From a virus, in the IMG/VR virus record IMGVR_UViG_3300037156_000109, positions 1-20,327 of that record: a DNA stretch of 20,327 nucleotides. The stretch is one strand, 5' to 3'. Each line of letters opens with the position of its first letter. Position 1 is the first letter of the stretch. Shown here piece after piece: positions 5,307-18,267 of the stretch. The position numbers and the translations under genes were made by a program. The notes beneath the pieces were generated by a model. It searched no databases, was not told the DNA's origin, and saw only the letters and a program-made list of their open reading frames with translations.

Positions 5307-5313
5307 TGGCCTC

Positions 5314-5339
5314 TATGTTAAAATCTAACATAATGTTAG
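5314..5339 (-). repeat. Three alternating copies of ATGTTA before the gpF-like gene
   Basis: TATGTTA at 5314-5320 and TAACATA at 5326-5332 form a seven-pair hairpin with a 5-base loop. The second arm also overlaps a near-perfect palindrome with ATGTTAG at 5333-5339. The set lies 8-33 bases upstream of the ATG of the head morphogenesis gene. It could be an operator, or a hairpin that tunes initiation. Nothing else in the 124-base gap (5307-5430) was recognised. Confidence 0.5.
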
Positions 5340-5430
5340 GTGCCCGGGACAAGATCCCTCTCAACTCTCTCGCACGAACCACTCTTCGCTTGAAAGAGCC
5401 CTTCATCCCTGAAGGCCCCGGACAGAATCA

Positions 5431-7774: not shown

Positions 7775-8140
7775 TTATGCGGGGGTCGGGTACAAAGCCG
7801 GTGCGACTGCGATCAAGTAGTTGCGCTGGATGATCGTGACCAGGCCGCCCTTGGTGATTCGGTACTCGATCGGCGCCGGGTTCTGAACCAGGAGCAAAGC
7901 CGATTGAGTCTTCGTCACAGCCAGGTTCACTTCACCGCCTCCGGCAGCTCCGACAACTGTGACGCCTTCGCTCGTCTTCAGAAGTTCGAGGTAGGTGCCA
8001 TCGGTGTTTGCAATGCGCGCGGAGATTTCGGTGACGCTGGTGAGGTCAAAGGGGGAGCCGTCTGGATTCTTGAGGAAGTCGTTGAAATTGGCGTCTTCGC
8101 CTTGGTACAGAACGATGCCGGACTGGCGTTCTAGTGACAT
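7775..8140 (-). CDS. Ig-like small protein resembling a baseplate BppU N-domain
   Basis: A 121-residue protein. I chose the ATG at 8138-8140 because GGAGG ends 5 bases before it, whereas an ATG four codons upstream overlaps that site. The sequence has the pattern GEDANFNDFLKNPDGSPFDLT (12-32), then alternating hydrophobic strands and a C-terminal GGLVTIIQRNYLIAV. This resembles the small beta-sandwich domains found at the start of phage receptor-binding/baseplate upper proteins, in which 'N-x-DGSPxDLT' is common. Here the domain stands alone. It may decorate capsid or tail, or act as an adaptor. The function is inferred. Confidence 0.6.
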   Translation of the reverse strand: MSLERQSGIVLYQGEDANFNDFLKNPDGSPFDLTSVTEISARIANTDGTYLELLKTSEGVTVVGAAGGGEVNLAVTKTQSALLLVQNPAPIEYRITKGGLVTIIQRNYLIAVAPALYPTPA

Positions 8141-8245
8141 CCATTCCTCCATGAAACGGGTTGTCGCGACTCAATTGTGGTTTCTAGGCGATTGTATCGG
8201 CAAAAACGTCCCATTTGCTAGCCGAATCAATAGACAGGACGTCTG

Positions 8246-9286
8246 TCAGACCTTCGGATCGGTTATTTTGTGCACGAACTCGAACCACATATCCTGGGCT
8301 TGAGCCGAGAAATTGAGCAAGAAGCGTTGATTCCAGCCGACCAGGCAGCGGGTTGACATCGCTCGGTGCATCTTGGAAACGATATCCGGGACTGAGTTGT
8401 CGATAGCCTTTGAGAAGCGTCCAGCCCAGGCGACTTCTTTAGAGAAGACCGTTGGAAGCCCAGCGCTCACATAATCAGCGCCGACAATATTGAAGGTCTC
8501 CGTCAGAGAAACCTGAAGGCCGATGTCGATCTTCTTTCTCAGCTCGTGCAGGAAATGGTCGGGCTCCATCCAATGGTGCTCCTCGAGCAGTCCAACGTCT
8601 GGCGCCAAGCCTTCAAAGAGCTGGCGAATCGATTTTAGGACTGGTTCTCCGCCGGTCTCGGTGCGCGTGCCATTGATATGGAAACGCAAGAACAGCCCAC
8701 GCTCTTTGGCGAACTGAATTGCGGCGAGCGCCTGAAGCAATTGGTTTTTCAGCGGCCTGACTGCTCCGAAGCACGCGACGTTGATCTCCCCGTCTTTCAC
8801 GAGGTTGCGCTTCACCGAGTGCTGCTCGCGAATATAGACGTTCGGTAAGTAGGAAAGGTGCTCTCGTTGGACAATGGCTTGTAAGGCTTCGTAAGATTCT
8901 CTGGAATTGGCGATCATATCGACGCCGCGCTTCAGATAGCCATGGATCCAGCCCATCGCAATCCCCTCGGTCGCAATGAATGGCATGTGGCTGTGGAGAT
9001 GAACAAACCACTTCACCCGGGGGTGGAGCTTCTTGAGGATGTCGAACTTCTCAGGCACGACCCACAAGGCTTCGATCACCACGATGTCAGGGCGCATCTC
9101 GGTCACCTGGCGATCGATGAAATCGTTATCGAGCACCTCGCACACGCGGGCGTCAATGTGCCGAGCCTGCAGAGCTCGGACAATGAATTCAGTTGAGTTC
9201 CACAAACCAGATGAGCGGCGCGTGTAGGTCTGAAAGCCGTAGGTTTCGTTTTTCTTGAGGATAAATAAAACCTTCGGCTTGATCAC
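8246..9286 (-). CDS. GT-B fold glycosyltransferase (family 1/4-like)
   Basis: A 346-residue protein starting with GTG and a GGAGG site 8 bases upstream. The N-terminal half has an alternating helix-strand plan with VKWFVHLHSHMPF (91-103) and DMIANSRESYEAL (123-135), the 'later in the cytosol a second domain begins' transition of GT-B enzymes. The C-terminal half has ACFGAVRPLKNQ (171-182), matching the G-x-x-x-x-x-KN loop, and ETFNIVGADYVSAGLP (263-278), the E-x(6)-A-D/E nucleotide-sugar binding motif. It is therefore very likely a sugar transferase. Its acceptor is unknown: a phage coat protein, phage DNA or host envelope are all possible. Phage genomes carry such genes to modify virions or host receptors. 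It lies in a five-gene cassette inserted between terminase and portal. A weak GACAG/CTGTC hairpin overlaps its stop codon (8233-8247). Confidence 0.85.
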   Translation of the reverse strand: MIKPKVLFILKKNETYGFQTYTRRSSGLWNSTEFIVRALQARHIDARVCEVLDNDFIDRQVTEMRPDIVVIEALWVVPEKFDILKKLHPRVKWFVHLHSHMPFIATEGIAMGWIHGYLKRGVDMIANSRESYEALQAIVQREHLSYLPNVYIREQHSVKRNLVKDGEINVACFGAVRPLKNQLLQALAAIQFAKERGLFLRFHINGTRTETGGEPVLKSIRQLFEGLAPDVGLLEEHHWMEPDHFLHELRKKIDIGLQVSLTETFNIVGADYVSAGLPTVFSKEVAWAGRFSKAIDNSVPDIVSKMHRAMSTRCLVGWNQRFLLNFSAQAQDMWFEFVHKITDPKV

Positions 9287-9288
9287 TG

Positions 9289-9507
9289 TTAGCGCCTCCG
9301 TGGCTTGTTTGAACGATGCGGCTTCCGGCGGTCGCGATCTTCGTGATCGTCGAACTCCCCGGGCTTGTCTTCTTCAGATGGCATTGAGCTCTTCAAGTCT
9401 GAGACGTCGGTGGTAATTTTGTCAATTGCAGCTCGACCACGGTTCCGCAGTCTCAGCCATTCCCGAAGCTCAGCGGCGCACTCGCCGTCTTTCGGCGGCT
9501 TTCTCAT
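9289..9507 (-). CDS. Small hypothetical protein with Arg-rich C-terminus
   Basis: A 72-residue protein. Its ATG overlaps the stop of the upstream gene (ATGA at 9504-9507), and its stop falls 3 bases before the glycosyltransferase GTG, so it is translationally coupled in both directions. The N-terminal half is helical and basic (AAELREWLRLRNRGRAAIDK). The middle is acidic (EEDKPGEFDDHEDRD) and the end is highly basic (RRKPHRSNKPRRR), which would suit nucleic acid binding. No family recognised. Confidence 0.7.
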   Translation of the reverse strand: MRKPPKDGECAAELREWLRLRNRGRAAIDKITTDVSDLKSSMPSEEDKPGEFDDHEDRDRRKPHRSNKPRRR

Positions 9508-9734
9508 TTCGCTTTTTTACTCAATTTTTTACTCACGGCCTTCTCGAAGTCCTCGCCGGAGCAAGACGCTGATAATTTCTTATCAGCCTGGACGGGCTCT
9601 TTGCCGTAGCGGTTGGAGTCTTTCGCGGAGGTCGCGCCGGGGGGAAGCTCCTGACCGGACGAGAGTTTCTTCTCGACCTCGTGAACTAGTCCACCCATCT
9701 TCTTGGTGCAAGCGCCAGCGAATCCATCGGACAT
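9504..9734 (-). CDS. Small hypothetical protein with KKLS motifs
   Basis: A 76-residue protein with a strong GGAGG site 5 bases before its ATG. It contains KKLS three times (EKKLSS, DKKLSA, SKKLSK) and ends in KAVSKKLSKKAK. The same K-x-L-[S/A/G] pattern is repeated about fifteen times in the protease-scaffold tail. It is probably the first gene of the glycosyltransferase cassette, since the palindromic non-coding region begins just upstream. No catalytic motif seen. Two cysteines (residues 9 and 58) show no metal-site spacing. Confidence 0.72.
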   Translation of the reverse strand: MSDGFAGACTKKMGGLVHEVEKKLSSGQELPPGATSAKDSNRYGKEPVQADKKLSASCSGEDFEKAVSKKLSKKAK

Positions 9735-9749
9735 CGAGACCTCCGAAAC

Positions 9750-9777
9750 AGTATATTTTATATCGATATATTTTCAG
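9750..9777 (-). promoter_or_regulatory. Possible sigma70-like promoter with palindromic spacer
   Basis: Read on the minus strand: CTGAAA (9772-9777, 4 of 6 to the -35 consensus), a 16-base spacer, then TATACT (9750-9755, 5 of 6 to the -10 consensus). The spacer holds the perfect palindrome TATATCGATATA (9759-9770), a possible repressor site. The predicted transcript would begin within or just before the ribosome site of the gene at 9734, which weakens the call. Confidence 0.3.
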
Positions 9778-9826
9778 CTTAGGTGCGGCCAAACGCCGCG
9801 CGCAAGTCCGGGCTGAGAAAGGTCCA

Positions 9827-9846
9827 GTGTTATCATTCGATAACAC
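9827..9846. repeat. Perfect inverted repeat, 8-base arms
   Basis: GTGTTATC and GATAACAC are separated by ATTC. No T-run follows on either strand, so it does not look like a simple terminator. It would suit a dimeric DNA-binding protein or an RNA hairpin. Confidence 0.7.
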
Positions 9847-9856
9847 CATCGATGAA

Positions 9857-9873
9857 ATACCTATTTTAGGTAT
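9857..9873. repeat. Palindrome with CCTATTTTAGG core, copy 1
   Basis: ATACCTA-TTT-TAGGTAT: seven-base arms and a 3-base spacer. It is a relative of the palindrome at 10106-10126. The third pair is A-T here and G-C there, so symmetry is kept through a matched change. Confidence 0.75.
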
Positions 9874-9944
9874 AACGAATGCGCTGGAAATCACCGATTC
9901 AGATATTTCAAGCGGAATGGATGTAGTCCAGCTCGGCAGATTTT

Positions 9945-9966
9945 CCCTACTTTTTGTAGGGTTTTT
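9945..9966 (+). terminator. Hairpin with T-tract, plus-strand orientation
   Basis: CCCTAC-TTTTT-GTAGGG is followed by TTTTT on the plus strand. It would work as a weak terminator for plus-strand transcription, although no plus-strand gene is seen. Its CCTA/TAGG ends recall the two related palindromes, so it may instead be a third member of that set. Confidence 0.35.
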
Positions 9967-9980
9967 CGGTAGGAAAGTTA

Positions 9981-10093
9981 CATTGTAAGCAGGACCGAGC
10001 CCGGGCTCCTCGACGCTTACAGTGTAAGCAAAGCCCACTAGATATGCCGAAGGCTGCACGCATCAAGCTGAACCATTTCGATGGCTTACACTT
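9981..10093. repeat. Four alternating copies of TGTAAGC
   Basis: TGTAAGC occurs at 9984-9990 and 10023-10029 on the plus strand, and as GCTTACA at 10015-10021 and 10085-10091. Flanks are partly shared, with AGTGTAAGC in two copies. Copies 1 and 2 close a ten-pair arm (with one G-U) around the palindrome GAGCCCGGGCTC (9997-10008). Copies 3 and 4 form a nine-pair arm around 55 bases. The alternation suggests protein-binding sites or nested RNA structure. Confidence 0.65.
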
Positions 10094-10105
10094 TTTAGAT
10101 GCGAA

Positions 10106-10126
10106 TTATGCCTATTTTAGGCATAA
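10106..10126. repeat. Palindrome with CCTATTTTAGG core, copy 2
   Basis: TTATGCCTA-TTT-TAGGCATAA: nine-base arms and a 3-base spacer, 30 bases beyond the terminase stop. It shares the CCTATTTTAGG core with 9857-9873 and differs by a compensating pair. Confidence 0.8.
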
Positions 10127-10155
10127 ACCCGCACGGTTGATAGAGGTTTCCACTA

Positions 10156-11658
10156 TCACTTTTTCGTCGCGCCCGAGTGGCCAGCCGTTGGAGCGAAGAC
10201 CGCGCCGGCCGTTCGGAACTGGACCAACGCTTGCGAAGCCGCATCCACGGTGTCGTCGTTTTTCACGAGGGGGAAGCTGCAGAGTTCGTTAACGTGATGT
10301 GGAACCCACGGCGCGATCTTAGGGCTCGGGTACCAGACGTTGCCGGCTTGGTACTCTGGCGCCACTGAGTTCAATCGCGCAGACTTATCGCCGTAAGGCT
10401 CGACTTCGACCAGCCCCGGGACTTGGCTCTTGAGCTGTTGCACGACGGCTGGACCGTTGGCCTTGGCTTCGATCAGCTTCATGTACGACTGTGGCCACTT
10501 GATCGAGAGCTTGATCAGCTCCTCGCACGCGCGGGGGAAGTCCCAGCGGCCGCGAACTTGATCGAGCAGATATTTGTTGGCGCCCTTGCGACCCCAGACT
10601 TGGCCGACGTAGAAATCGCTCGTCTGCTTATCCTTCGTGGCCATGTCCCAGGATTGGATGATCACGTCGAAGCGTTCTGGGAGCACGTCATAATACTGAA
10701 TCCAGTCAGCCTTGATGATGTTACCGCCCTCGATGTTCGGACGCTGTTGGTAGAGCGCAGCCCAGTCGCGATCCCCGATCGATCCCTTGAGCGCCATGAG
10801 TGACTGCACCGAGAACTTATCGGGCCACAGCGCTTCGCCGATTTGGCGTGAGTCGTATGGAGCGTCGTCGTCTTCCTTGATGGCTGGCAAACGGAGCACG
10901 ACCCACTGATCGGCCGTCGGATCTGACTTCGCTTGCTCGAGCAAACGTCCAACGAGATCGTCCGAATGCCAACGGGTCATCGTGATCAGCACCGAGCCAA
11001 CGCCTTCAAGGCGGGTGCGCAAGGTTGAGGTGTAGAACTTCCACACGTTCTCGCGAATGGTCGTTGAGTCAGCGTCCTCACGGTTCTTGATCGGATCGTC
11101 GATGAGAATCAGATCGGCTCCGCGACCCGTGAACGATCCACCGACGCCGGCAGAACGCATCGAGCCCGTGGGCCTGATCAGCTCAAGCCCTGACTTCGGA
11201 TCGTAGAGCGGCATCAGCTCGTGCTCGTGTTTATTGCGCGAGTATTTCGAGACCGACCCTTCCGGGGTGATCTTCGATAAGGGAAAAATCTCATGGTAAA
11301 TCGGCGTGTCCATGATCCGCTGCACGTCGGTCGTCATGTCGCCGGCGAGGTCTGAGTTGTAAGTCGCGAGCATGATCTCTTCCATTGGATAGAAACCATG
11401 CCACAACGCCGGCAAGCGGCGCGAGGTCAGCTCTGACTTCCCGTGACGAGGAGGCTCTTCCAAGATCAGCCGGCGGATCTTCTTACGGATGAAAAGGTTT
11501 AGGACCTTGCACGTCAGCTCGTGGTGCCAACCGACTTGGTAGCTCGGCATGGTCAGCGTTGTGAACGGGAGCATTTGCCCACGCCTTGCGGCGTTGATCA
11601 GCATCTCACGACGGATCAACTCCTCTTCGGCTGCGAGCTGGTCGAGTGTCTTGATCAA
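10156..11658 (-). CDS. terL: Terminase large subunit (packaging ATPase and nuclease)
   Basis: A 500-residue motor protein that cuts concatemeric DNA and pumps it through the portal. The ATPase domain shows a Walker A-like PPRHGKSE (69-76), Walker B LILIDD (183-188) and a coupling-type ITMTRWH (225-231). The C-terminal RNase H-like nuclease shows SWDMA with Asp338, EAK at 397-399 and a final acidic KNDDTVDAA (467-475). The start is the TTG at 11656-11658, overlapping the upstream stop as TTGA with GGAGG 5 bases before. A Met at residue 19 would remove conserved sequence. It resembles the Terminase_6 type with the TIGR01630-like C-terminus. It is the last gene of the coupled chain that begins at the methyltransferase, and is followed by the palindrome-rich region. 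Confidence 0.96.
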   Translation of the reverse strand: MIKTLDQLAAEEELIRREMLINAARRGQMLPFTTLTMPSYQVGWHHELTCKVLNLFIRKKIRRLILEEPPRHGKSELTSRRLPALWHGFYPMEEIMLATYNSDLAGDMTTDVQRIMDTPIYHEIFPLSKITPEGSVSKYSRNKHEHELMPLYDPKSGLELIRPTGSMRSAGVGGSFTGRGADLILIDDPIKNREDADSTTIRENVWKFYTSTLRTRLEGVGSVLITMTRWHSDDLVGRLLEQAKSDPTADQWVVLRLPAIKEDDDAPYDSRQIGEALWPDKFSVQSLMALKGSIGDRDWAALYQQRPNIEGGNIIKADWIQYYDVLPERFDVIIQSWDMATKDKQTSDFYVGQVWGRKGANKYLLDQVRGRWDFPRACEELIKLSIKWPQSYMKLIEAKANGPAVVQQLKSQVPGLVEVEPYGDKSARLNSVAPEYQAGNVWYPSPKIAPWVPHHVNELCSFPLVKNDDTVDAASQALVQFRTAGAVFAPTAGHSGATKK

Positions 11659-13271: not shown

Positions 13272-13453
13272 GCGCGCGCGCAAGCCCGCGATCGGATCAA
13301 ACGCGACTTAACGTAAAGAGCAACGCGCGAGAGCTTGATCGGATCAAACGACTTTACAGGCGCTCGGCCGTATTCAGACCCCTGCATCCGGCGGGCTGAC
13401 TTGATCATCTTCTTCGACACTTTGATGTGGCTGGGCTTGAGGGATTTCTTCAT
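13268..13453 (-). CDS. Small basic protein
   Basis: A 61-residue, very basic protein (MKKSLKPSHIKVSKKMIKSA at the start, KSRLIRSRACARA at the end). The longer version of this frame begins inside the small terminase gene in a wrong-frame shadow. The ATG at 13451-13453 overlaps the small-terminase stop as ATGA. High positive charge suits DNA or RNA binding, but no motif is recognised. Confidence 0.68.
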   Translation of the reverse strand: MKKSLKPSHIKVSKKMIKSARRMQGSEYGRAPVKSFDPIKLSRVALYVKSRLIRSRACARA

Positions 13454-13914
13454 TTCTCTGACTCCTGTGGTTCGGGTTCGATGTAACTGCATTGCTCGCG
13501 TAGGATCTCCAAGCGCTTGAGCCGCTCTTCCGGGGGAACGTATGTCGCCTCGACTGGACCTCCGCCCTCGCCGGTGTGCTCGATAACCGTCGTCTCTTTC
13601 CACTTAGCCTGCGTGGAAAGCCAATACTTGATCATGTTCACGTTGCCCTTGATCGCCAGCTCGTAAGCTTTCTTGGCGACATTGGACAGAGCAATTGATT
13701 TCCCGCGGTCGAGTGCATCTGAAAACGCTGGAGAGGCGGCAGCCCAGCTTCGGATCGATCGATCACTAACTCCGAGCACGGCGCCGATCTGAAGTCTCGT
13801 AAGCCCTAGACCCGACAAGGTTTCGACTTGTTTGAGCTGGGCCTCGGTGAATTTGTTGTCCTCGACCTTTACGGGCTCGATGCTTCCGGTTTTGGCTTCT
13901 GGGATTTCACTCAT
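13450..13914 (-). CDS. terS: Terminase small subunit
   Basis: A 154-residue protein. Residues 24-58 form a helix-turn-helix (LTRLQIGAVLGVSDRSIRSW), which recognises the packaging site. Residues 81-107 contain AYELAIKGNVNMIKYWL, then TQAKWKE, the usual signature by which small terminases of this type are recognised. The C-terminus is acidic. It overlaps the methyltransferase stop by 8 bases. Unusually, eight small genes separate it from the large subunit, although all of them are coupled. Confidence 0.88.
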   Translation of the reverse strand: MSEIPEAKTGSIEPVKVEDNKFTEAQLKQVETLSGLGLTRLQIGAVLGVSDRSIRSWAAASPAFSDALDRGKSIALSNVAKKAYELAIKGNVNMIKYWLSTQAKWKETTVIEHTGEGGGPVEATYVPPEERLKRLEILREQCSYIEPEPQESEK

Positions 13915-15193
13915 CTTGACCTGCCTGGACCAGCGTTGCCTTGAGCCCTGTATAGTTCTCCCAGCGCTTCACGATGACGTCACAGTAGCGCGGTTCGAGC
14001 TCCATGAGCCTGGCCTTGCGATTCTCCTTCTCGCAGGCGATGAGAGTTGACCCGCTGCCTCCGAATAGGTCCAGGACCACGCCTTGAAGACTTGAGGAGA
14101 TCAGAAGCTCGTTCGTGATCAGATCCACGGGTTTTACCGTTGGGTGGTCTTTGCTGAGATCTCGACCGAACTCGAGGCATTTCGAATAGCTGACGTTTGG
14201 CACAGCGTTGTTCCAAGTTGCCGACTTGCGAAACAACAGAAGGTATTCGACGTCCGGACGATGGCTCCCGCCCAGAGGTATGGCGTTGGGTTTTTTCCAA
14301 AATAGGATATTGAAGCTGTAACCGGCCTCTACCGCCCATTGGAGATAATCTGGGACTAGATCCTTGTTGCAGAAAACATAGGCATTCATTTTACCGGCTG
14401 GGAAAACTGCGGATAGATTCTTAAGGAAGGCTACGGGGTCGAAGTCGCAAAGGTGGTTGATCATCTCGCCTTGCCGCTTTGCCGCCTTGCCTATCGGCTG
14501 ATTAGAGCCTCCCTCGACCTGCATTCGATACGGTGGATCAGTGAACACGAGCTCAGGGGTTTCTCCGCGCAAAAGCTTTTGAACCGAATCGAATTTCGTG
14601 GCGTCTCCGCAATGAAGACGATGGGCGCCCATCTGGTAAACATCTCCCAGGCGTGTTTTTGCAATGGCCGTGGCTTCAGGAATGGCGTCTGGATCCCCTA
14701 AATCCTTATCGGCTGGCTCCAAGACGAAATCTTTCAGGCCAAGCATGTCGAGCTTGAAACTCGGGTCGAGGGTCGCTAAGTCCTCGTTCACTCCCTTGAG
14801 GTCGAGATGCGCCCAAAGAGCTATGGCGTTATCAGCGATACCGAAAGAGAGTTCGTGATCATCGTCAATGAACTCTTGAAACGAGACAGGGTATTCGGTC
14901 CAGCCGTTTAACTTCGCCGCTTCAATGCTGCCGTGGCCCGTGGCCATGAATGATGATCTGGTCGAAACGATCACAGGTTTTCTTATGCCGTGAAAGCGCA
15001 GGAGTTCAGCCAGGCGTTCGATTTGATCCTGGGGATGGACGTTCCGATTCGATGGGTTAGGCTTCAGATCTGAGATCTTGACCATCTTATCGTAGGAGCA
15101 GCGGACAAAGTCCTTTGCGGTTTTTTCGATTACTTTCGAATATTTTCGATTCTTAGGTTCCTGCACTTTTGGTGCAGTCTTCTTGGTGCTCAT
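13907..15193 (-). CDS. ParB-like domain fused to a beta-class DNA methyltransferase
   Basis: A 428-residue protein. I chose the ATG at 15191-15193 because TAGGAG stands 9 bases before it. A longer start at 15220 has no site. Residues about 37-150 form a ParB N-domain-like unit (KISDLKPNPSNRN, then RKPVIVS and GHGSIEAAK). Residues about 180-428 are an S-adenosylmethionine DNA methylase with DPPY (219-222), HPTVKP (350-355) and DLFGGSGST (375-383). The order of DPPY before the FxGxG motif marks it as beta class, usually N6-adenine or N4-cytosine. ParB-methylase fusions are common in phages and may protect DNA from host restriction or mark the packaging site. The recognition sequence is unknown. 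Confidence 0.9.
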   Translation of the reverse strand: MSTKKTAPKVQEPKNRKYSKVIEKTAKDFVRCSYDKMVKISDLKPNPSNRNVHPQDQIERLAELLRFHGIRKPVIVSTRSSFMATGHGSIEAAKLNGWTEYPVSFQEFIDDDHELSFGIADNAIALWAHLDLKGVNEDLATLDPSFKLDMLGLKDFVLEPADKDLGDPDAIPEATAIAKTRLGDVYQMGAHRLHCGDATKFDSVQKLLRGETPELVFTDPPYRMQVEGGSNQPIGKAAKRQGEMINHLCDFDPVAFLKNLSAVFPAGKMNAYVFCNKDLVPDYLQWAVEAGYSFNILFWKKPNAIPLGGSHRPDVEYLLLFRKSATWNNAVPNVSYSKCLEFGRDLSKDHPTVKPVDLITNELLISSSLQGVVLDLFGGSGSTLIACEKENRKARLMELEPRYCDVIVKRWENYTGLKATLVQAGQDE

Positions 15194-15226
15194 TCCATGC
15201 GCTCCTAGGTCCTGCGTCATGCGGAC

Positions 15227-15689: not shown

Positions 15690-15971
15690 TCAATCGTTCG
15701 CAGCTCGCGGGCCGCATTCGCAATACTTGCTCTTCGTAGCCCCGCACCAAGTGCAGTAGGGACTCGGGTCCACTTCTTCTCCGCGGTTCGGGTTCATGTG
15801 CACCCACGTCAGCGCTACGCTTCGCGGAGCCTTGATGCTCAGCTTGACCCGCTGTCCTCTCACGCTCTCGATGAACACCTCAACGGTGCCCCCTTGCGGG
15901 TGATCGAATTGCACGCCATCGCCTTCCAGCATTCGGTGGACCATCTTCGTCGATTTCTCAGGTTGGTTCAT
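15690..15971 (-). CDS. Divergent CsrA-like protein with Cys-rich C-terminus
   Basis: A 93-residue protein. Residues 29-57 (TVEVFIESVRGQRVKLSIKAP, then RSVAL) align by eye with the CsrA core (V-x-V-x3-V-x-G-x2-V-R/K-I/L-x-V/I-x-AP-K/R-x-V). CsrA is a small dimeric RNA-binding translation regulator. The arginine of the CsrA HREE segment is replaced by Trp here, so normal GGA binding may be lost. Residues 73-86 (CTWCGATKSKYCEC) form a likely zinc knuckle not found in CsrA. It overlaps the resolvase stop as ATGA. The fold assignment is an inference from pattern. It could be another small beta-barrel. Confidence 0.5.
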   Translation of the reverse strand: MNQPEKSTKMVHRMLEGDGVQFDHPQGGTVEVFIESVRGQRVKLSIKAPRSVALTWVHMNPNRGEEVDPSPYCTWCGATKSKYCECGPRAAND

Positions 15972-17498: not shown

Positions 17499-18008
17499 TC
17501 AGGGCTCCTCTAAAATGTCTACGAGGAGAGCGAACATCTCCGAGCTGGCTTCGAAGCGGCCTTCTTGCCGGCATTCCTCGGCACGATCTCGGAGGCGTTT
17601 CAACGTCGGGTCCACGGTGTCTTCGGACTCTTCGTTGTGAACAGTCTCGTCGTCGCCAACGGCGTCAGCCGTGATCCGAATGTTGAGCATGGCTCTTTGA
17701 AATTCGCACTTCCAATTGCGTCCGTGCTTCTCGCGAAGCTCGGCAATGATCTCGCAAACCGACTTGCGCATGTAGCGGCGCTTGCCGTGCTTTTCGGACG
17801 GGATTTCATTGTCCTTGATCATGTTCCAGACGAAGGCTTCAGAGACGCCGATAATGGGCGCGGCCTCGGGGATTGAAATCAGCTCGAGATCGTCGTCGAA
17901 GAGACCATGCTCGACGGCAAGCTCTTTGGCGTTCTCAATTTCGTCGGTGGCTTTCACGGAGCGGAGCGGGGGAGTTGGGGATAAACCTGCGGATAAGTTT
18001 GGCAACAT
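17499..18008 (-). CDS. Excisionase/MerR-type helix-turn-helix protein
   Basis: A 169-residue protein. Residues 45-90 (ISIPEAAPIIGVSEAFVWN, then IPSEKHGKRRYMRKSVCEI) match the winged HTH_17/excisionase pattern: an 'x-EAA-x-x-x-GVS-x-x-x-V' helix-turn-helix, then a basic wing. The C-terminus (about 120-169) is acidic and helical. A strong GAGGAGG site 6 bases before the ATG supports the start. It follows the repeat-rich leader at 18009-18267, which may contain its own operators. It could be a transcription regulator, or an excisionase if the phage is temperate. No integrase is in view. Confidence 0.72.
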   Translation of the reverse strand: MLPNLSAGLSPTPPLRSVKATDEIENAKELAVEHGLFDDDLELISIPEAAPIIGVSEAFVWNMIKDNEIPSEKHGKRRYMRKSVCEIIAELREKHGRNWKCEFQRAMLNIRITADAVGDDETVHNEESEDTVDPTLKRLRDRAEECRQEGRFEASSEMFALLVDILEEP

Positions 18009-18267
18009 TGGGTCCTCCTCGAGTTGCGGGTTTCTATTTAGAAATCAGATCGGTCAGGCGTCGGCCTCTAGAGACTTGCGCCGTAGGATTTATTAACGTC
18101 TCATTCCCGACCGAACTGAAGCTTGAATCTTATTAAATGGGCCGGGGAGAGTCTAGCACCGCGAAGCACCATTTGCCTCCCCCCGGCTTGCAAACCCGAC
18201 CGACGTTTTCTGCCATGCCGGCTCGAACGGTTTGCAGGGCACCTAACGTCGGCGGATTTATCTATGG
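18009..18267. other. Untranslated leader with interleaved inverted repeats
   Basis: This 259-base gap between the coiled-coil gene and the HTH gene holds no supported frame. It contains TGCAAACC (18189-18196) with GGTTTGCA (18229-18236), and CCGACGTT (18200-18207) with AACGTCGG (18245-18252). The pairs cross each other, so they cannot both form as simple hairpins. CCCGACCGA (18106-18114 and 18195-18203) and TAACGTC (18094-18100 and 18244-18250) are direct repeats. TTTCTATTTAGAAA (18031-18044) is a small hairpin close to the HTH gene. Confidence 0.65.

Follow-up and report, generated by a model that had tools for sequence, protein, structure and literature searches.

Lambda-type repressors act at operators of about 17 bp, which are two-fold symmetric and overlap promoters. 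The stoperators of mycobacteriophage L5 are repressor-type sites that are intergenic among the late genes, and these lack symmetry and are spread across the genome. The cos and pac regions of tailed phages combine repeated sites and a central dyad adjoining the terminase genes. Little of the late-gene control of uncultured tailed phages has been mapped. A motif that also bears on the present work, TTACN3GTAA, is the reported LexA motif of Bdellovibrio bacteriovorus (PMC8565304).

We report the analysis of a gap that follows the terminase large subunit gene (terL) in an uncultured virus, the whole record of which (20,327 bases) forms the window. Within 421 nt, this gap holds repeated sites of two-fold symmetry in two families, far above the level of shuffled sequence. 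We consider it an even prospect that the gap is an operator/promoter control block, with predicted protein-binding switch sites for the nearby genes. The gap is a plausible regulatory region, though an ordinary one: dyad operators in repeated copies are a familiar type of element, and what is particular to this uncultured phage group is their position. The features are collected in Table 1.

Table 1. Features of the gap and its flanking genes, in positions of the window
Feature	Positions	Strand	Sequence or description	Basis
76-aa gene	9504-9734	-		N-terminus conserved in relatives (MSDGFAG-like)
Non-coding gap	9735-10155		terL to 76-aa gene	Codon scores; relatives' spacing; DNA similarity searches
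Promoter-like pair	9750-9777	-	CTGAAA-16-TATACT, just upstream of 76-aa gene	Consensus match only
Inverted repeat	9827-9846		GTGTTATC-ATTC-GATAACAC	
Palindrome A1	9857-9873		ATACCTA-TTT-TAGGTAT; coding (-) strand CCTAAAATAGG	Inverted-repeat scan, shuffles
Terminator-like hairpin	9945-9966 (stem-loop 9945-9961)	+	CCCTAC-TTTTT-GTAGGG-TTTTT, antisense to genes	
Palindrome B1	9978-9990		TTACATTGTAAGC, fits TTACN3GTAA	
Perfect palindrome	9997-10008		GAGCCCGGGCTC (GAGCCC/GGGCTC), centre of B1-B2 dyad	
Palindrome B2	10015-10029		GCTTACA-G-TGTAAGC (GCTTACAGTGTAAGC), fits TTACN3GTAA	
B-type half site	10084-10092		GCTTACACT	9/9 complementary to 10021-10029
Palindrome A2	10106-10126		TTATGCCTA-TTT-TAGGCATAA, with the core of A1	
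Terminase large subunit (terL)	10156-11658	-		phrog_38, E 6.5e-106

All of the genes adopted in the window lie on the minus strand. Reading frames within the gap score lower in codon usage than most genes, which argues that it is non-coding; some of these frames run past 80 codons without a stop, yet their codon scores fall below those of the real genes and a hidden gene was rejected. The GC content of the gap is 46%, against 54% overall, and searches with its DNA against phage and plasmid collections and against relatives returned only short chance matches. An assembly chimera at this place is unlikely, because a homologue of the 76-aa gene also follows terL in three relatives (L107, L111 and L141). 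A sequence-only reading had described the genome as otherwise almost free of gaps. This is roughly right: with the genes as adopted the present gap is the largest, and the next, of 259 nt, lies at 18009-18267. That second gap is found upstream of an HTH_17 protein (17499-18008), near a stretch with a fold z of -3.8 in a crude scan, and carries TTTCTA-TT-TAGAAA at 18031-18044.

The palindromes A1 and A2 lie 251 bp apart and have a common core of 11 nt, CCTATTTTAGG. They differ by one symmetric base pair, A-T at 9859/9871 and G-C at 10110/10122, exactly as the sequence-only reading had noticed, and the arms of A2, at 9 bp, are longer than in that reading. A scan for the core, which it had proposed and which here allowed one mismatch at most, returned solely these two sites in the 20.3 kb window (0.14 expected), and two arm-7 repeats with 11 central bases in common arose in none of 2000 shuffles of the gap. 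If A1 and A2 descend from one ancestor, two random substitutions would land on paired positions and pair again with a chance of about 1/48 (1/16 x 1/3), which is suggestive but concerns only one event. The difference that had been called compensating is one between two sites in a single sequence, and the homologous gaps of relatives are without the palindromes. Exact matches to either 17-mer in IMG/VR were set aside as chance because all but one, which sits at the edge of a contig, fall inside ORFs of unrelated contigs. A paper search for the motif found none.

Between A1 and A2 lies a second palindrome family, TTACATTGTAA and TTACAGTGTAA, which had been missed. Its members, B1 and B2, are symmetric about GAGCCC/GGGCTC and are the only two copies of TTACN3GTAA in the window (9978-9988 and 10017-10027; 0.04 expected). 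The four inverted repeats of the sequence-only reading are all present, at or within 1-2 bases of where it had placed them; the 8-base repeat, which it had put between A1 and A2, in fact lies outside the pair. Inverted repeats with arms of at least 6 number seven in the gap against 1.07 expected, a count reached by 0 of 300 shuffles, and those with arms of at least 7 number four against 0.25. The gap thus shows one feature expected of an operator/promoter region, symmetric sites that recur within a stretch free of genes. Terminator-like sites in the region (three) are not above shuffles (2.2).

Close relatives, at 57-64% identity, were obtained by a portal search and others were added by TerL searches; TerL as a single query returned no relative. 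Where the homologous gaps were compared, as the sequence-only reading had proposed, the spacing from terL to the next gene was 0 to ~150 nt and the palindromes were absent from the terL-downstream regions of the relatives examined. The homologue of the 76-aa gene starts ~27 to 62 nt past the terL stop in L107, L111 and L141, and the gap is similarly short in L109, L110 and L116, which are near-identical to each other here. Other genes lie ~12 to 150 nt after terL in L104, L106, L138 and L269, and in L142 the gene after terL overlaps it. From this spacing, most of the gap, ~360 bases, is extra DNA in this phage. It stands at the edge of the terL-portal region, where the gene content is variable among relatives.

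Several further observations concern other places in the window and in relatives. The gap between the portal gene and a gpF-like gene (window 5330-5425, minus strand; L105 3832-3913; L113 1644-1725; L104 9569-9646; L109 9795-9905; L111 ~9750-9848) contains a tRNA-Thr called by ARAGORN in L105 and L113 and an Rfam tRNA in L104 and L105. In the window and in L109 it has a cloverleaf-like fold that neither program calls (window z -3.4), and in L109 and L111 it ends in GGATCACCA; such folds at a conserved place may represent degenerate tRNAs or tRNA-like structures. In this portal to gpF gap of the window, at 5313-5339, the inverted repeats TATGTTA-AAATC-TAACATA and CTAACAT-A-ATGTTAG overlap. The portal gene of L117 (the contig that is also L129 and G005) matches in two pieces, 8001-8765 and 9750-10550, ~1 kb apart and with overlapping query ranges (4-258 and 232-499), as if an insertion, intron or intein had split it. 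G005 and G011 have a major capsid protein and portal close to those of the window, with TerL missing (G005) or 33% identical (G011), and the terminase seems to have been exchanged among phages with the same head module.

Core A recurs in one relative. We scanned 312 kb of relatives for RCCTANNNTAGGY and found, after several patterns had been tried, the exact 13-nt core once against 0.02 expected, as ACCTATTTTAGGT at 37375-37387 of IMGVR_UViG_3300006162_000019 (G003). The element ACCTAAAATAGGT occurs in this relative alone and lies directly upstream of terS, in a stretch of ~70 nt from a RusA-like gene to terS, where the coding strand reads ATACCTAAAATAGGTAC; a degenerate second copy, ACCAAATAGGTAC, is placed ~42 nt farther upstream. 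The orientation to the genes is identical for A1, A2 and the G003 site, and the position directly before terS makes chance a less likely source of this core. G003 has the core without the rest of the block. Of the eight scanned relatives one has the site, upstream of terS, and this is a single case; most relatives have no A site in their terminase cassette. The selection on the palindrome that the sequence-only reading had argued for gains indirect support from this recurrence in the same orientation and is partly countered, on the terms that reading had set, by the short, palindrome-free gaps downstream of terL in relatives.

Other sites resemble core A less closely. G002 has TCATACTAAAGTAGTATGA between terS and terL, just upstream of terL, with the CTA-AAR-TAG centre alike and the arms different, which may be a weak parallel; a look-alike in G001, ATATCTAAAATAGATAA, is within coding sequence and was rejected. 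In L109, a gap of 420 nt (1290-1713) separates the RusA-like gene from terS; its inverted repeats are also strong (GGTTAAA-TCGAT-TTTAACC and GGGGCCAG-AGAAACC-CTGGCCCC), and the A motif is absent from it. In the window, a DNA methyltransferase with an N-terminal ParB-like domain (13907-15220, minus strand) lies directly upstream of terS (13450-13914). The 93-aa protein at 15690-15971 (minus strand) has a weak CsrA-like match (PF02599, E 0.0012, below the curated cut-off; phrog_9500, E 0.0031) and is a possible phage-borne CsrA-like RNA-binding protein.

As an operator/promoter region, the gap would be a compact transcription-control block that separates terL from the downstream accessory and head genes, which are variable. 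A1 and A2 would be putative 17-bp operators, with 7-bp half sites about a 3-bp centre, overlying -10-like hexamers, and dimer binding there would stop or modulate the transcription that runs into the 76-aa gene and those after it. The hexamer, TAAAAT, is found on the coding strand in all three A sites (A1, A2 and G003). At A1 it is preceded 16 nt upstream by TTTCCA, a promoter match of 9/12, and the -35 matches at A2 and in G003 are poor (3/6); promoter-like matches in the region number three against 0.7 expected. B1 and B2 may likewise be paired operators, served by a different dimeric protein, and the terminator-like hairpin would terminate transcription on the antisense strand only. Protein binding at A1, A2 and the B sites, their overlap with working promoters, the direction of regulation and the identity of the regulators are what we infer. 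Helix-turn-helix proteins common to the window and G003 were sought and none was found except TerS, at 25% identity. A more specific proposal, which we hold to be a rather improbable one, is that the late promoters of the terminase cassette are governed by a palindromic operator family, TACCTAAAATAGGTA, particular to this uncultured phage group and regulated by TerS or another phage protein, and that in this phage the extra block with its two families lets the accessory and head genes be controlled apart from terL. The dyad motif in the terminase cassettes of two related phages offers a short, concrete DNA target in the search for a regulator, and if the small terminase were the binder then packaging would be linked to late transcription.

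The sequence-only reading had allowed the palindromes to be either sites for a dimeric protein or RNA stems. Hairpins in the late transcript, affecting termination, RNA stability or translation, would agree with the folding of the gap (z -5.2 and -5.3 on its two strands, against shuffles), with the constant orientation, by which A1, A2 and the G003 site all have the loop AAA when read on the coding strand, and with the G-U pairs that lengthen the A2 stem on the coding strand and are absent on the other. The folding excess is, however, equal on both strands, and with the palindromes removed z falls to between -1.2 and -2.0, inside the spread of the remaining window, which leaves structured RNA beyond hairpins unsupported; the covariance models of Rfam 15 gave no match in the gap, and a known RNA family was likewise rejected. 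A1 and A2 are not intrinsic terminators, since no T-run follows either, and the sole site of that type (GC-rich stem and T-run), at 9945-9966, is on the antisense strand. As the folding excess is strand-equal and palindrome-derived and Rfam gave no match, the data favour DNA sites over structured RNA, and a role as RNA hairpins is rather unlikely. Among the DNA-based alternatives, a packaging recognition region of the pac or cosB type, in which the palindromes bind TerS and the GAGCCC/GGGCTC dyad is the cutting site, would accord with sites that adjoin terminase genes in both the window and G003. TerS is the sole DNA-binding-type protein common to the two, that of G003 matches an Xre-like HTH model, and a nested dyad surrounds position 10002. 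Nevertheless, the two TerS proteins are only 25% identical, the window sites lie downstream of terL and away from terS, the dyad block is absent from relatives and the contig is continuous through the gap; nor is a common genome end seen, because the distances from terL to the contig end differ among relatives. We regard a packaging region as unlikely.

The extra ~360 bp might instead be a non-autonomous mobile element or a recombination fragment, its palindromes having no role in the phage. The block is missing from this place in relatives and is lower in GC, but no further copy was found in the window, relatives, phage or plasmid records, a 19-nt direct-repeat consensus has no match in IMG/VR, clear terminal repeats or a target duplication were not seen, and the occurrence of core A in G003 with nothing else of the block also counts against an element of this kind, which makes it quite unlikely. 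It is very unlikely that the B sites serve as LexA boxes of the host and place the downstream genes under SOS control: B1 and B2 do fit the Bdellovibrio motif (PMC8565304), and both of its copies in the window are inside the gap, but the motif is not enriched over a reversed control in relatives, such short dyads could bind other regulators, and neither a usable host nor a prophage came out of searches of bacterial genomes with the major capsid protein and TerL.

Set against the described systems, the B sites are an exact fit to the LexA box of Bdellovibrio, from which they differ in their extra symmetric or shared flanks (GCTTAC...GTAAGC) and in a gap without an adjacent SOS gene. The gap resembles cos/pac regions in its repeated sites and central dyad beside terminase genes, but it follows terL instead of lying near terS, has no conserved counterpart in relatives and bears no sign of DNA ends. 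It has in common with the L5 stoperators that the predicted repressor-type sites are intergenic among late genes, and it is unlike them in that its two A sites are symmetric and share a single gap, the rest of the window having no other. Lambda-type operators differ from the present sites in that the gap is without an adjoining repressor gene, A1 and A2 are 251 bp apart and the setting is among late genes, not in an immunity region. The sites themselves are alike: A1 and A2 are repeated 17-bp dyads with 7-bp half sites, placed in a putative non-coding control region over a -10-like hexamer, and their geometry is that of many dimeric helix-turn-helix repressors.
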